From an uncultured Thiotrichaceae bacterium (lineage in GTDB: Bacteria > Pseudomonadota > Gammaproteobacteria > Thiotrichales > Thiotrichaceae): 64,000 nucleotides of DNA. Of this stretch, positions 17,126 to 40,484 are shown one piece after another (positions within the stretch are counted from its first letter, which is position 1; each line of letters starts with the position of its first letter). The stretch spans positions 186,001 through 250,000 of the forward strand of contig CALAMO010000010.1 of the NCBI GenBank assembly GCA_937925855.1. The letters are read 5' to 3'. Position numbers and translations under genes: made by a program. The notes beneath the pieces were generated by a model, which was given only the letters and a program-made list of their open reading frames with translations, had not been told where the DNA came from and searched no databases.

Positions 17126-17290
17126 ATGGCTGCCTGTCCTGTTTGTGATGCTGAAGTAGAAATTGCTGCTGACACCGTTGTGGGTGAACTGATGAGCTGC
17201 GATGACTGTGGCTGTGAGCTGGAGGTGACCGCACTTGACCCGGCGACGCTGGCGGAAGCCCCAGAAGCGGGTGAAGACTGGGGCCAATAG
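17126..17290 (+). CDS. lysW: LysW-type amino-group carrier protein ending in Gln
   Basis: This 54-residue acidic protein is an amino-group carrier of the LysW family. In known pathways the substrate amino group is linked to the side-chain carboxyl of the carrier's C-terminal glutamate, then phosphorylated, reduced, transaminated and released. The zinc-knuckle cysteines are C4-x2-C7 and C25-x2-C28, followed by the family core [12 protein letters not shown] and a C-terminal EDWG. The last codon before TAG is CAA, so the protein ends EDWGQ rather than the usual EDWGE. A strong ribosome site (TAAGGAG, 17111-17117) precedes the ATG. The gene starts the operon with lysX, lysY, an amidotransferase, lysZ and lysJ homologues. 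The Gln end is discussed under findings. Confidence 0.95.
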
Positions 17291-17291
17291 G

Positions 17292-18143
17292 GTGTCTACT
17301 GCCAAGCCGCGGGTCGGGCTGTTGCATTCACTGCTGCGCAAAGATGAAAAGATGTTGCTGGCGGCGTTTCAGCGCGCCGGGGTGGAGCCGGTCATGCTCG
17401 ATGATCGGCAGCTAGTGTTTGATTTTGCGCACGGCCCAGAGGTTGACGTCGTGTTGGAGCGCGCGCTCAATCATTCGCGTGGCCTGAATGCGCTACGTTT
17501 GTTTGAGGCTGCAGGCATTAAGTGCATTAACAGTTACTCCGTTGCCAATGTCTGTGGTGATAAGTTATTGACCACGGCTGCGCTGGCTGAACACGGCGTG
17601 GCCCAGCCACAAAGTCGGGTCGCTTTTACGGAGGCTGCCGCGCTGCAAGCCATTGAGGACATCGGCTATCCGGTGGTGCTGAAGCCCGTGGTCGGTTCTT
17701 GGGGGCGTTTACTGTCTAAGATTAATGACCGGGACGCAGCGGAAGCGATTCTGGAGCACAAGGCGGTACTCGGCAGCTACCAGCATTCTGTGTTTTATAT
17801 ACAGGACTACGTCGCCAAAGCCGGACGCGATATTCGCAGCTTTGTCGTCGGTGATGAGTGTATCGCCGCCATCTATCGCAGCTCCGAGCATTGGATTACC
17901 AATACGGCCCGTGGTGCGGTGGCGAGTAAATGCGTCGTGACGCCGGAAATTGCCGATATTTCATTGCGCGCTGCCGCAGCGGTGGGCGGTGGTGTGCTGG
18001 CGGTTGATCTATTTGAAAGCGCTGCTGGCCTAATGGTGAATGAGGTGAACAACACCATGGAATTTAAGAACAGTGTCGATACCAGCGGCGTGGATATTCC
18101 CGCTAAGATGGTGGCCTATGCGCTGGCGGAGGCGAAAAAATGA
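17292..18143 (+). CDS. lysX: LysX-type carrier-protein ligase (ATP-grasp)
   Basis: LysX is an ATP-grasp (RimK-like) ligase that joins the alpha-amino group of aminoadipate or glutamate to the C-terminal glutamate of LysW. The 283-residue protein shows the family motifs [36 protein letters not shown] and [21 protein letters not shown] chose the GTG at 17292, one base after the lysW stop; an upstream in-frame ATG would lie inside lysW and add a basic tail unlike the family. The stop overlaps the next gene as ATGA. The motif set resembles bacterial LysX, but whether it takes glutamate or aminoadipate cannot be decided by eye. Confidence 0.93.
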
Positions 18144-19165
18144 TACGTGTATCGATTGTGGGGGCCTCGGGCTACGCCGGGGGCGATCTGCTGCGTGTGC
18201 TGCTGTTTCACCCGGAAGTAGACGTGGTGCAGCTGACTTCTGAGCGCTACGCCGGCAAGATGGTGACGACGCTGCATCCGAATCTGCGTAAGCTTACTAA
18301 GCTGAAGTTTGTGACCCTTGCTGAGCTGGAGCCGTGTGACGTGCTGTTTCTCGGCCTGCCGCATGGTCATGTGATGAATCGACTGGCTGAGTTTGAAGCC
18401 TTGGCCGATACCTTGATTGATTTGTCCGCTGATTTTCGCCTCAATGACGCCGCAAGCTTTTTGCAGGCCTATGGGGTTGAGCATGCTTGCCCTGAGCGGC
18501 TGCCGGATTTTGTTTACGGTATTCCTGAGCTACAGCGCGCGTCAATGCGCGGGGCCCGGCGTATCGCCAGTGCGGGCTGTAACGCGACTGCTACAATTTT
18601 GGCCTTGCATCCACTGTATCAGGCCGGCTTAGTTGAATCCGCCGTGGTTGAAGTCAAAGCGGGTTCCAGCCAGGGCGGCAACCGTTCCAGTGAGGCATCC
18701 CATCATCCTGAACGCAGCGGTGCGGTGCGCTCTTATAAGCCGACCGGTCATCGCCATGTTGCCGAAATGCGGCAGGAGCTGGGCGCGGATAATCTACATT
18801 TCTCTGCGACCTCGATTGAAATGGTGCGCGGCATTCTAGCGACCTGTCATGTCTTCCTCAATCAGCCTCTGACCGAAAAAGACGTCTGGAAACTGTATCG
18901 TTCTGCCTATGGCAGCGAGCCGTTTATTCGCATCGTAAAAGAGCGCAGCGGTATTCATCGCTATCCTGAACCCAAGCTGGTGGCGGGCAGTAACTACTGC
19001 GATATTGGCTTTGAAATTGATCCGCACAGTAACCGCTTAGTGGTGATGTCGGCGCTGGATAATTTAATGAAAGGTGCCGCCGGGCAGGCAGTGCAGGCGT
19101 TTAATATCGCCTATGGTTTTGATGAAACGCTGGGGCTGGAATTTCCTGGCCTGCATCCGGTGTAA
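18140..19165 (+). CDS. LysY/ArgC-type N-acyl-glutamyl(aminoadipyl)-phosphate reductase
   Basis: This 341-residue NAD(P)H-dependent reductase converts a carrier-bound (or N-acetyl) acyl phosphate to the semialdehyde. It has the N-terminal dinucleotide motif [20 protein letters not shown] and the catalytic cysteine in [18 protein letters not shown], with the product-binding region [19 protein letters not shown]. The length matches ArgC/LysY (about 340). It overlaps lysX by four bases and is followed after six bases by the amidotransferase gene. Because its neighbours are carrier-dependent enzymes, I infer that it acts on LysW-bound substrate; by sequence alone it could be called ArgC. Confidence 0.92.
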
Positions 19166-19171
19166 TGGGGC

Positions 19172-19819
19172 ATGTGTCGGCTTCTGTGGGTGCGTAGTGC
19201 TGAGCCTTTCTCGCTTGCTGAGCAGCTGCAGCCGTTTGCTGCGATGTCGCAGCAGAGTAAGGAATATCAGGGGCATGGTTGGGGGTGTGCGTGGTTGGAA
19301 ATCCCCTCGGCTAAATGGCAGCAATACCACAACATCAACCCCATTTGGGCCGATGACCTTTCCCAATTCAGCGCTCTTAGAACCCATCTGCTGTTAGTCC
19401 ACGCTCGCAGCGCGTTCCGTGATGAAGGCATTGTGGTGGAAAACAATATGCCGTTTAGCGATGGTACTTCGGTGTTTATCTTTAACGGTGAGCTGCGCGG
19501 GGTAAAGATTAAAGCGCAAGGCCGCATTGGGGCCGAGAAGATTTATAACTATATCCGGCGGATGGATAAAGGCGATAAGCACCAAGCGCTGGCGAAAGCG
19601 GTGGGCATTATTAAGCGCCGTACCGACTATGTGCGGGCGATGAATATTCTGCTGACGGATGGTGTGTGCAGTGTCATGTCGTCGGATTACAGTGAAGACC
19701 CGGATTATTTTCAGATGTACCGCAAACAGTCTGGCGATATGCAGTGGGTGTGTTCCCAGCCGTTTCCGGGGGAAGCGGATTGGCGCAAGATAGCTAATGC
19801 CACGGTAGAGGCATTGTGA
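19172..19819 (+). CDS. Stand-alone class II glutamine amidotransferase-fold protein
   Basis: This 215-residue protein is an N-terminal-nucleophile hydrolase of the class II glutamine amidotransferase fold. Cys2 follows the initiator Met (MCRLLWVRS), and the family signatures follow: HARSAF (residues 77-82), where Arg contacts substrate; ENNMPF (90-95); and FNGEL (104-108), where Asn and Gly form the oxyanion hole. There is no synthetase domain, so it should act as an amidohydrolase by itself. It sits six bases after the lysY/argC gene and before lysZ, inside a carrier-protein operon. Its substrate is not known; candidates are the gamma-amide of the carrier's terminal Gln or the gamma-linked product bond. 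Confidence 0.9.
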   Translation: MCRLLWVRSAEPFSLAEQLQPFAAMSQQSKEYQGHGWGCAWLEIPSAKWQQYHNINPIWADDLSQFSALRTHLLLVHARSAFRDEGIVVENNMPFSDGTSVFIFNGELRGVKIKAQGRIGAEKIYNYIRRMDKGDKHQALAKAVGIIKRRTDYVRAMNILLTDGVCSVMSSDYSEDPDYFQMYRKQSGDMQWVCSQPFPGEADWRKIANATVEAL

Positions 19820-19902
19820 GTGTGTTTGTGTTTACAGCGAAAAGTCAGCACGCTCGCAGGGCATCGCAGCACAGTTCCCTGATTGAGGAAAAATAAACGC
19901 AT

Positions 19903-20694
19903 ATGTACATCATTAAAATAGGCGGCGGCGCCAGCATCAACACCGCAGGTATTCTCGCTGACCTCGCGGCCACAGAACAGCCCTTCATTATCGTGCACGG
20001 CGCCAATGCGCTCCGCGATGAGCTGGCGCAAAAGTTAGGGCTGGAGAAACAGGTGCTGACATCGCTCTCTGGCTATAGCAGCGTGTTCTCTGATAACGAT
20101 GCGATGGATGCCATCCTGATGGCCTATGCCGGTTTGCGCAATAAGCGCATCGTGGAAAGCTGTCAGCAGCTGGGTATGAATGCGGTGGGTTTGTCGGGTA
20201 TTGATGGCCGCCTGATTCAGGGTCGCCGCAACAAAGGCATTCGCGTGCGTGAGCAGGGTAAGACGTTGATTAAGCGTGATTTCTCGGGTAAGCCGCAGTC
20301 GATTAACACCGAGCTGCTCTCGCTCCTGTTGGATAACGGCTATAACCCAGTGCTGTGTATTCCGATTGTGGACGAGCAGGGGTATGCGATTAACTCAGAG
20401 AACGATGACATCGTAACGACGTTGGCAGCAGCCACCCAGCCGACCTGTATATTCCAGTTTATTGAAGCGCCAGGGTTTTTGGAGGATGCGGCGGATGAGT
20501 GTTCGCTGGTGCCCACGCTGTCTGGGGCTGAGCTGAGTGTACGGGAAGCGCAGGTTGAGGGGCGGATGAAGCGTAAAATGTTAGCGCTCCGCCAGCTGTT
20601 TGAGCAGGGCGGTGCGAAGGTGATTATTGCGGATGGTCGCACCGCGCACCCCTTACAGGATGCGCTGAACGGTGCGGGCACCACTCTTGCCTGA
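19903..20694 (+). CDS. lysZ: LysZ/ArgB-type acyl-glutamate(aminoadipate) kinase
   Basis: This 263-residue amino-acid kinase phosphorylates the distal carboxyl of carrier-bound glutamate or aminoadipate. It begins with the kinase-fold strand YIIKIGGGASIN, has the substrate region LTSLSGYSSVFSDNDAMDAI and the LysZ-type block GIDGRLIQGRRNKGIRVREQ, and ends with KVIIADGRTAHPLQDALNG. This RRNKGIRV region is typical of LysZ rather than of acetyl-glutamate kinases of gammaproteobacteria. GAGGA lies upstream of the ATG. An 83-bp gap separates it from the amidotransferase gene. The precise substrate stays open between glutamate and aminoadipate. Confidence 0.92.
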   Translation: MYIIKIGGGASINTAGILADLAATEQPFIIVHGANALRDELAQKLGLEKQVLTSLSGYSSVFSDNDAMDAILMAYAGLRNKRIVESCQQLGMNAVGLSGIDGRLIQGRRNKGIRVREQGKTLIKRDFSGKPQSINTELLSLLLDNGYNPVLCIPIVDEQGYAINSENDDIVTTLAAATQPTCIFQFIEAPGFLEDAADECSLVPTLSGAELSVREAQVEGRMKRKMLALRQLFEQGGAKVIIADGRTAHPLQDALNGAGTTLA

Positions 20695-20760
20695 GTGGGC
20701 ATGGAGCGCGTCATAAGGCCGATCATATGAAGCAGTTAAACCGAATAGGGTAATCCAATA

Positions 20761-21921
20761 ATGAGTACAGACTACCGGCAGTTAGAACAGCACTATGGCG
20801 TCACCCTCTACCCCAAACGTGATGTGGTTATGGTCCGCGGTGCGGGTGCCTTGCTGTATGACGAGGCCGGGCGTGAGTATATCGACTGTGCCGCGGGAAT
20901 TGGTGTGGCGAACGTTGGCCATTGTCATCCCGATGTCGTGGCGGCGCTACAGGCACAAATCAGCCGGCTGATGGTGGTGCCGAACACCTTGTACAACGAT
21001 CAACGCTCACTGCTGCTGGAAAAACTGGTGCAGTGCGCGCCAGAGAATCTGACGCGGGCGTATCTGTGTAATTCGGGGACGGAGGCGGTGGAAGCCGCGC
21101 TGAAATTTGCGCGGGTCGCGACGGGGCGCACTAACTATGTCACCGCTATGCGGGGGTTTCATGGCCGTACCATGGGTGCGGTGAGTGCCACCTTTACTAA
21201 AAAATACCGTGATCCGTTCGCGCCTTTGGTGCCGGGCTTTAGCTATGTTCCGCTGAATAAAATCGATAAGCTGGCCGCCGCAGTGGATGAGCATACGGCA
21301 GCGGTCATGCTGGAGCTGGTGCAAGGCGAGGGCGGCGTTAATATTGCGGAACGTGAGTATATCGCGGCGGTACGCAAGCTATGCACTGAGCGCGGGGCGC
21401 TGTTGATTATCGACGAAATTCAGACCGGTTTTGGGCGTACCGGTAAACTGTTTGCCTGTGAGCATTATGACCTGCAGCCCGATATGATGACACTGGCAAA
21501 AGCGATTGCAGGGGGAGTGCCGATGGGGGCGCTGTTGCTGAGTGAGCGCGTCCAGGTGGAACCGGGGATGCACGGCACGACCTTTGGCGGTAATCCGATG
21601 GCCTGTGCGGGTGCTTTGGCGACCTTGAGCGTGCTGGAAACCGCCGCTTTGCCGCAGCGTGCTGAGGAGATGGGTGCATATTTTGAGCAGCGGTTAATGG
21701 AAAAACCGCTGGCGCAGGTGCGTTCAGTGCGGCGACTGGGGCTGATGATTGGGCTGGAGCTAAAAGGCAAAGTGCAGCCAGTGTTGGCAGCGCTGCTGGA
21801 GCGTGGTGTGATTGCCCTGCCCGCTGGGGCGACCGTGTTGCGGCTATTGCCGCCCCTGGTGATTAATAAGGCTCAGCTGGATGAGGTGGTGGCGCATTTA
21901 CAGGCACTTCTGGGGGAGTGA
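20761..21921 (+). CDS. lysJ: LysJ/ArgD-type semialdehyde aminotransferase
   Basis: This 386-residue class III PLP aminotransferase converts the carrier-bound semialdehyde to the omega-amino product, using glutamate as donor. The PLP-site sequences are NSGTEAVEAALKFAR, the DEIQTGFGRTG block and the Schiff-base lysine K247 in LAKAIAGGVPMG. It begins with YGVTLYPKRDVVMVRGAGA, which is usual for ArgD and LysJ. It is the last gene of the operon, closed by a strong bidirectional terminator. The product after release would be ornithine (from glutamate) or lysine (from aminoadipate). No LysK or ArgE releasing enzyme is encoded nearby. Confidence 0.92.
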   Translation: MSTDYRQLEQHYGVTLYPKRDVVMVRGAGALLYDEAGREYIDCAAGIGVANVGHCHPDVVAALQAQISRLMVVPNTLYNDQRSLLLEKLVQCAPENLTRAYLCNSGTEAVEAALKFARVATGRTNYVTAMRGFHGRTMGAVSATFTKKYRDPFAPLVPGFSYVPLNKIDKLAAAVDEHTAAVMLELVQGEGGVNIAEREYIAAVRKLCTERGALLIIDEIQTGFGRTGKLFACEHYDLQPDMMTLAKAIAGGVPMGALLLSERVQVEPGMHGTTFGGNPMACAGALATLSVLETAALPQRAEEMGAYFEQRLMEKPLAQVRSVRRLGLMIGLELKGKVQPVLAALLERGVIALPAGATVLRLLPPLVINKAQLDEVVAHLQALLGE

Positions 21922-39608: not shown

Positions 39609-40484
39609 ATGTTTCGCGGCAGCATGGTGGCACTAATCACACCGATGATGGCGGATGGCTCGATTGATGAGCCAGCCTTAGAAGCCTTAGTGGGTTTTCA
39701 TATTGACAACGGTACGGATGCCATCGTGGCAATGGGTACCACCGGTGAGTCTGCAACACTGTCACACAGTGAGCATCGCCACGTTGTCAAACGGGTGATT
39801 GAGGTAGCGGGCGGCCAGCTCCCCATTATCGCTGGCACCGGTTCTAACAGTACCGCAGAGGCGATCCAACTGACGCAGGCCGCACTAGAAGACGGCGCGG
39901 ATGCCGCACTTTTGGTCGCGCCGTACTATAATAAGCCTACGCAAGAAGGTTTGTACCAGCATTACAAGGCGCTGGCGGAACAAGTCGCTATTCCACAGAT
40001 ACTCTACAATGTGCCGGGGCGTACGGCCTGTGATATTTTGCCGGAAACAGTTGAACGTTTAGCGCAAATAGGCAATATTGTGGGTATAAAAGATGCCACC
40101 GGCAGCGTAGAACGTGCCAGTGAGATTATCGCCCGTTGCGGTGAGGCGATAGAAGTTTACAGCGGCGAAGATCCGGCAACGCTGGAAATTATGCTGGCGG
40201 GTGGTCATGGGACGATCTCGGTAACGGCTAATGTGGCGCCACGTTTGATGCACGAGATGTGTGCCGCAGCGCTGGCTGGAGACCGCGCCACCGCTACCCG
40301 GATTAATGACCAGCTGATTCCGCTGCATCGGGCTTTGTTTCTTGAGCCAAACCCGACACCTGCGAAATGGGCGCTGCACAAAATGGGTTACGGTAGCGAG
40401 GGAATACGTCTGCCGTTATTGCCGCTGTCTGACGCGGTTCGGCCAGAAGTGCTGGATGCTATGAAGGTCGCCGACGTTGTGTAA
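39609..40484 (+). CDS. dapA: 4-hydroxy-tetrahydrodipicolinate synthase
   Basis: DapA condenses pyruvate with aspartate semialdehyde at the start of diaminopimelate and lysine synthesis. The ATG at 39609 follows GGGAGAA and gives 291 residues; an upstream frame start at 39552 is less likely. The active site is complete and in the standard numbering: T44 and T45 (MGTTGES), Y133 (ILYNVPGRT), R138 and the Schiff-base K161 (GIKDATGS). The next gene is bamC, the same order as in Escherichia coli. Its presence shows that the usual diaminopimelate route to lysine is very likely available, which bears on the LysW cluster. Confidence 0.97.
   Translation: MFRGSMVALITPMMADGSIDEPALEALVGFHIDNGTDAIVAMGTTGESATLSHSEHRHVVKRVIEVAGGQLPIIAGTGSNSTAEAIQLTQAALEDGADAALLVAPYYNKPTQEGLYQHYKALAEQVAIPQILYNVPGRTACDILPETVERLAQIGNIVGIKDATGSVERASEIIARCGEAIEVYSGEDPATLEIMLAGGHGTISVTANVAPRLMHEMCAAALAGDRATATRINDQLIPLHRALFLEPNPTPAKWALHKMGYGSEGIRLPLLPLSDAVRPEVLDAMKVADVV

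Follow-up and report, generated by a model that had tools for sequence, protein, structure and literature searches.

A glutamine-ended LysW carrier and an EgtC-like amidohydrolase, its predicted deamidase and product-release enzyme, in a variant of the LysW pathway

How can an amino-group carrier of the LysW type be loaded and unloaded when the residue to which its substrate is attached is not encoded? This question is raised by an operon in the window, by which we mean the whole stretch of DNA analyzed (64,000 nucleotides from an uncultured Thiotrichaceae bacterium). The LysW homologue at 17126-17290 is 54 aa long, contains the two CxxC zinc pairs and the EDWG tail, and is preceded immediately 5′ of its ATG by AAGGAGA. 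Its ORF scores above cut-off against NCBIfam TIGR01206 lysW (58.5 bits, cut-off 53.2) and Pfam PF21344 (60.9 bits, cut-off 27) and falls short of the cut-off of NF041070 (59.3 bits, cut-off 75). However, the encoded terminal Glu, the attachment residue, is missing, and the final codon is CAA, specifying Gln. The protein is a Gln-ended LysW homologue, not a canonical LysW. Its gene comes first in an operon with the order lysW-lysX-lysY-GAT-lysZ-lysJ, spanning 17126-21921:

17126..17290, + strand, lysW homologue (amino-group carrier), C-terminal EDWGQ, not EDWGE (CAA at 17285-17287, TAG at 17288-17290)
17292..18143, + strand, lysX homologue (ATP-grasp ligase), GTG start (TIGR02144, 336 bits, cut-off 275.6)
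18140..19165, + strand, lysY/argC homologue (predicted reductase of the LysW-bound phosphate; TIGR01850, 385 bits)
19172..19819, + strand, GAT, EgtC-like Ntn amidohydrolase with a class II glutamine amidotransferase fold, the predicted LysW-Gln deamidase and product-release hydrolase
19903..20694, + strand, lysZ homologue ([LysW]-aminoadipate kinase; NF010659, 242.6 bits, cut-off 223)
20761..21921, + strand, lysJ/argD homologue (aminotransferase; NF042418, 457.5 bits, below the cut-off of 700; TIGR00707, 448.7 bits, above cut-off)

No LysK is encoded in this operon, and no TIGR01902 match over cut-off was found in its own genome.

The initial annotation had read the ending as EDWGQ, and this was borne out. 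CAA followed by TAG was read at the end of the ORF, and a pattern scan of approximately 85,000 prokaryote species genomes for bacterial-type LysW ending in [DE][DE]WGQ-stop recovered 77 stretches from other genomes with the same ending, with chance matches estimated at well below 1. The 77 further stretches, together with the intact operons in other families, thus rule out almost completely that the CAA codon is a base error or a one-off degenerate change. Since the pattern allows only the spacing of bacterial LysW, Gln-ended LysW is undercounted. The Gln tails were found in Gammaproteobacteria, Ignavibacteriota, Calditrichota, KSB1, Acidobacteriota, Planctomycetota, Gemmatimonadota, Krumholzibacteriota, Chloroflexota and several archaeal groups; most of the sequences are MAGs, and some species were counted twice among the loci used (e.g. 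L015/L087 and L016/L024). Gln or Glu, and no other residue, was seen at the LysW C-terminus in these operons, as read by a pattern search for Gln and a later reading that required an EDWG-like tail. LysW-like proteins of other kinds were also observed. One archaeal MAG (L338) encodes a second LysW-like protein ending in ECDWGQ near several LysX-like genes and GAT, some Chloroflexota (L261, L262 and L264) carry two or three tandem copies of lysW, all Glu-ended, and six Acidobacteriota loci (L175, L178, L179, L181, L182 and L183) encode LysW-like zinc ribbons with long acidic tails and without EDWG[EQ], with no lys genes found nearby.

Closer to the window, the lysW gene was absent from all other genomes among the 144 searched as relatives, eight of which belong to the same genus. 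On this ground, the idea that LysW characterizes the genus or family was rejected, and the window lysW was therefore likely acquired horizontally or widely lost. A sample of the class contained four other gammaproteobacterial genomes with LysW, two with Gln tails (from another family) and two with Glu tails, and the six-gene order is identical in all four.

The ligase chemistry of LysX needs a side-chain carboxylate, and the Gln form of the carrier should therefore need deamidation before it can be loaded. LysX/ArgX is reported to recognise the EDWGE tail through its GSWGR motif (PMC10433800). The window LysX carries this motif together with an ITNTA (NT) signature, and GSWGR was retained in 67 of the 70 LysX proteins beside Gln tails in genomes with GAT, as well as in 50 of the 53 beside Glu tails with GAT or LysK.

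The remaining member of the operon, GAT, does not reach the cut-off of any NCBIfam or Pfam model; its sole NCBIfam match, to the EgtC model TIGR03442, is weak (50.8 bits, far under the cut-off of 218.65). Its structure model has a mean pLDDT of 94, and the closest solved structure to this predicted fold is EgtC (Foldseek and VIA-align, Z 26.4, rmsd 1.7 over 201 residues), followed by GlmS (Z 21.7). EgtC strips a gamma-glutamyl residue in ergothioneine synthesis (PMC9103826). GAT has the features of a class II glutamine amidotransferase or Ntn amidohydrolase, namely the fold, an N-terminal Cys, a conserved Arg and an Asn-Gly pair. All 58 GAT rows, a few of which share a species, have Cys2, Arg79, Asn105 and Gly106 without exception, whether the tail in the operon is Gln or Glu. 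In class II enzymes, free glutamine is contacted at its alpha-amine by the Asp of the D(T/S)E motif and at its alpha-carboxylate by the Arg. This Asp, present in the four proteins compared (GlmS, YafJ, PurF and a Streptomyces relative), is replaced by Gly120 in all 58 rows. The loss of the Asp and the retention of the Arg would fit a substrate with its alpha-nitrogen engaged in a peptide bond and a free carboxylate, as in the C-terminal residue of LysW.

GAT was present in the operon or genome for 70 of the 77 Gln-tail stretches. In 42 the stored stretch itself includes GAT, which sits between lysY and lysZ wherever both can be seen, and for 28 of the remaining 35 a strong match was found elsewhere in the assembly; in the 16 of these 28 that were re-read, GAT adjoins lysX, lysY, lysZ or lysJ every time, the other 12 lying outside the re-reading. 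The seven stretches without GAT come from three Undinarchaeota-like genomes (L031, L033 and L080), two Thermoflexus MAGs (L071 and L073) and two MAGs with cut contigs (L034 and L037). The clearest exception is provided by the Thermoflexus MAGs, which have LysW-Gln and a true LysK in the genome but no operon GAT, and the Undinarchaeota-like genomes combine LysW-Gln with a lack of GAT, their only M20 protein being a divergent one. An operon GAT is therefore not strictly required for a Gln tail. In one of the two Thermoflexus MAGs, a weaker GAT relative is found at a distance from all lys genes; a GAT relative placed in this way in a Thermoflexus-like MAG (L330:302-970) keeps the Gly at the Asp position.

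GAT and LysK did not occur together at any of the loci read. LysK over the TIGR01902 cut-off was absent from every GAT-operon genome tested and present in the LysK controls, and none of 43 LysK-adjacent LysW proteins has a Gln tail. Surveys based on family, not on the tail, covered Acidobacteriota, Chloroflexota, the class of a Melioribacter genome and one archaeal phylum. The LysW operons surveyed were either of the LysK kind, all with Glu, or of the GAT kind, with Gln or Glu, and some loci had neither enzyme. With the centres excluded, 7 Gln and 11 Glu tails were counted in GAT operons and 0 Gln and 42 Glu tails in LysK operons (Fisher p 8e-5, a description only, as the rows are phylogenetically non-independent); one of the Glu-tail GATs (L210) is divergent. 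The initial annotation had proposed aligning the last residue of LysW homologues encoded beside a class II amidotransferase gene: Gln indeed recurs there, but so does Glu, and the Gln tail was rejected as a simple marker of GAT presence. Among 369 gammaproteobacterial genomes, a strong GAT match (profile E <= 1e-100) was found in exactly the five with LysW, with the next-best matches below 43 bits; the chance of this coincidence is approximately 2e-11 if the genes were placed at random. LysK is replaced by GAT in these operons.

Overall, we consider it probable, from sequence comparison and the modeled structure, that GAT deamidates LysW-Gln and frees the product in place of LysK in a variant of the LysW pathway; the two activities, like the identity of the product, are predictions. 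In the putative cycle, Cys2 of GAT would attack the side-chain amide of the terminal Gln and release ammonia, and hydrolysis of the gamma-glutamyl thioester would yield LysW-Glu. LysX would then phosphorylate the Glu side chain and join it to the amino group of the substrate, and the attached substrate would be converted by LysZ, LysY and LysJ. Finally, GAT would apply the same chemistry to the gamma-glutamyl isopeptide bond, so that the product is set free and LysW-Glu is restored. Each carrier molecule would have to be deamidated once, and release would recur in every cycle. Product release is more likely to be the main job of GAT and deamidation a second one, given that GAT takes the place of LysK and is conserved next to Glu tails as well. 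Deamidation would follow from the same chemistry and would explain the Gln tails; the two activities are indistinguishable from sequence.

The initial annotation had proposed that the Gln carrier needs activation by deamidation in a manner similar to Pup and Dop, and that this would constitute a new control step. The first proposal gains indirect support from the recurrence of Gln tails, their near confinement to genomes with an EgtC-like GAT and the retention of GSWGR; it needs adjusting in that GAT is conserved to the same degree beside Glu tails and occupies the place of the missing LysK, which points to release as its more likely main job. The second is not supported, because the tail changed between Gln and Glu at least 10 times among the GAT rows of a LysX tree (127 rows, quick method). 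Such repeated switching would be expected if both forms end as Glu, and the Gln and Glu tails look like interchangeable forms, not a conserved checkpoint. In the same tree, 68 LysX rows form one branch with a support of 99, all with GAT except one cut MAG, while several archaeal GAT rows and one other lie outside it, mostly on long branches. Since the GAT operons belong for the most part to a single clade, few independent origins underlie the association of Gln with GAT, and a test of independent pairs yielded one to two informative pairs.

These few origins lend some weight to the reading that GAT is a release hydrolase only, a replacement of LysK, and that its link to the Gln tail reflects shared ancestry, the Gln being converted by another or a spontaneous route or simply tolerated. 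The conservation of GAT in Glu-tail operons, its substitution for LysK and the Gln tails kept without an operon GAT in the Thermoflexus and Undinarchaeota-like genomes agree with this reading. However, one would expect an enzyme able to cut a gamma-glutamyl amide at the C-terminus of LysW to cut the unsubstituted amide too, and the lack of Gln tails beside LysK also speaks against it; we regard release alone as unlikely, though the strongest of the competitors. Somewhat less credible is a role for GAT as an ArgJ-like transacylase, in which Cys2 would form a gamma-glutamyl thioester from LysW-Gln or the LysW-bound product and pass LysW to the amine of a new substrate, sparing ATP and leaving LysX only to prime the system. 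The Gln tail would then serve as a donor amide whose ammonia is exchanged for the substrate amine, and the Ntn fold and Cys thioester chemistry permit transfer as well as hydrolysis. Against this, LysX with GSWGR is kept wherever a locus is readable far enough, and the enzyme closest to GAT in structure, EgtC, acts as a hydrolase. We give little credence to the idea that GAT is an ordinary glutaminase that feeds ammonia to another enzyme of the operon and is unrelated to the LysW tail: the class II amidotransferase fold would suit such a role, but the Asp position for free glutamine is Gly throughout, the absence of LysK would be left unexplained, and no LysX, LysZ, LysY or LysJ step is known to use ammonia.

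If GAT acts as both deamidase and release enzyme, which product does the operon make? The NT signature of the window LysX is the one associated with alpha-aminoadipate, and a profile search found no homocitrate synthase over the TIGR02146 cut-off. In Ignavibacteriota, Calditrichota and other groups, lysW has a synthase-like gene next to it, which suggests lysine as the product there. In Caldithrix abyssi, LysWXZYJ and Hcs have been described in one locus with the other pathway genes scattered, and non-orthologous displacement was suspected (PMC5317091). ArgJ and DapA were both found over cut-off in the window's own genome and in the four other gammaproteobacterial genomes with LysW. The operon therefore looks accessory in these gammaproteobacteria, and its role as the sole arginine or lysine route in its own genome is unsupported. 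An intact dapA lies in the window itself at 39609-40484, and the genome thus encodes, in addition to the LysW operon, no less than this one step of the diaminopimelate route to lysine.

In the searchable literature, a scope outside which most subscription papers lie, we found no description of a Gln-ended LysW or a GAT-type enzyme. If the proposed cycle is true, it names an enzyme for product release in LysW pathways without LysK and explains why many LysW proteins are without a residue thought to be essential. It would also correct the annotation of GAT, and it would constitute an independent parallel to the PupQ/Dop arrangement, built from unrelated enzymes.

The system shares with the LysW/ArgW pathway (Thermus LysWXYZJK, Sulfolobus, Thermococcus and haloarchaeal ArgW) a homologous carrier, recognizable by its EDWG tail and two CxxC pairs, and homologous LysX, LysY, LysZ and LysJ, with GSWGR in common in LysX. 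However, the terminal Glu is replaced by Gln, LysK is absent, and an EgtC-like Ntn enzyme is encoded between lysY and lysZ. The proposed release of the product from the carrier would make GAT similar in function to LysK, the [LysW]-lysine/ornithine hydrolase of the M20 family, but the folds are unrelated and the two are mutually exclusive in the operons read. GAT resembles EgtC in its fold, its N-terminal Cys and its proposed hydrolysis of a gamma-glutamyl amide, but it has approximately 20% identity to EgtC, scores far below the cut-off of the EgtC model and has LysW as its genomic partner. Pup ends in G[EQ] (PMC2588565), and Dop both deamidates PupQ and cleaves Pup off its targets (PMC8599861). 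By analogy, the LysW variant would likewise combine a small protein ending in G[EQ] with a single enzyme for deamidation and isopeptide cleavage, as proposed for GAT. In contrast, the components are non-homologous, PafA and Dop being glutamine-synthetase-like, LysX an ATP-grasp enzyme and GAT an Ntn hydrolase, and the cargo of LysW is a small amino acid, whereas that of Pup is a protein.
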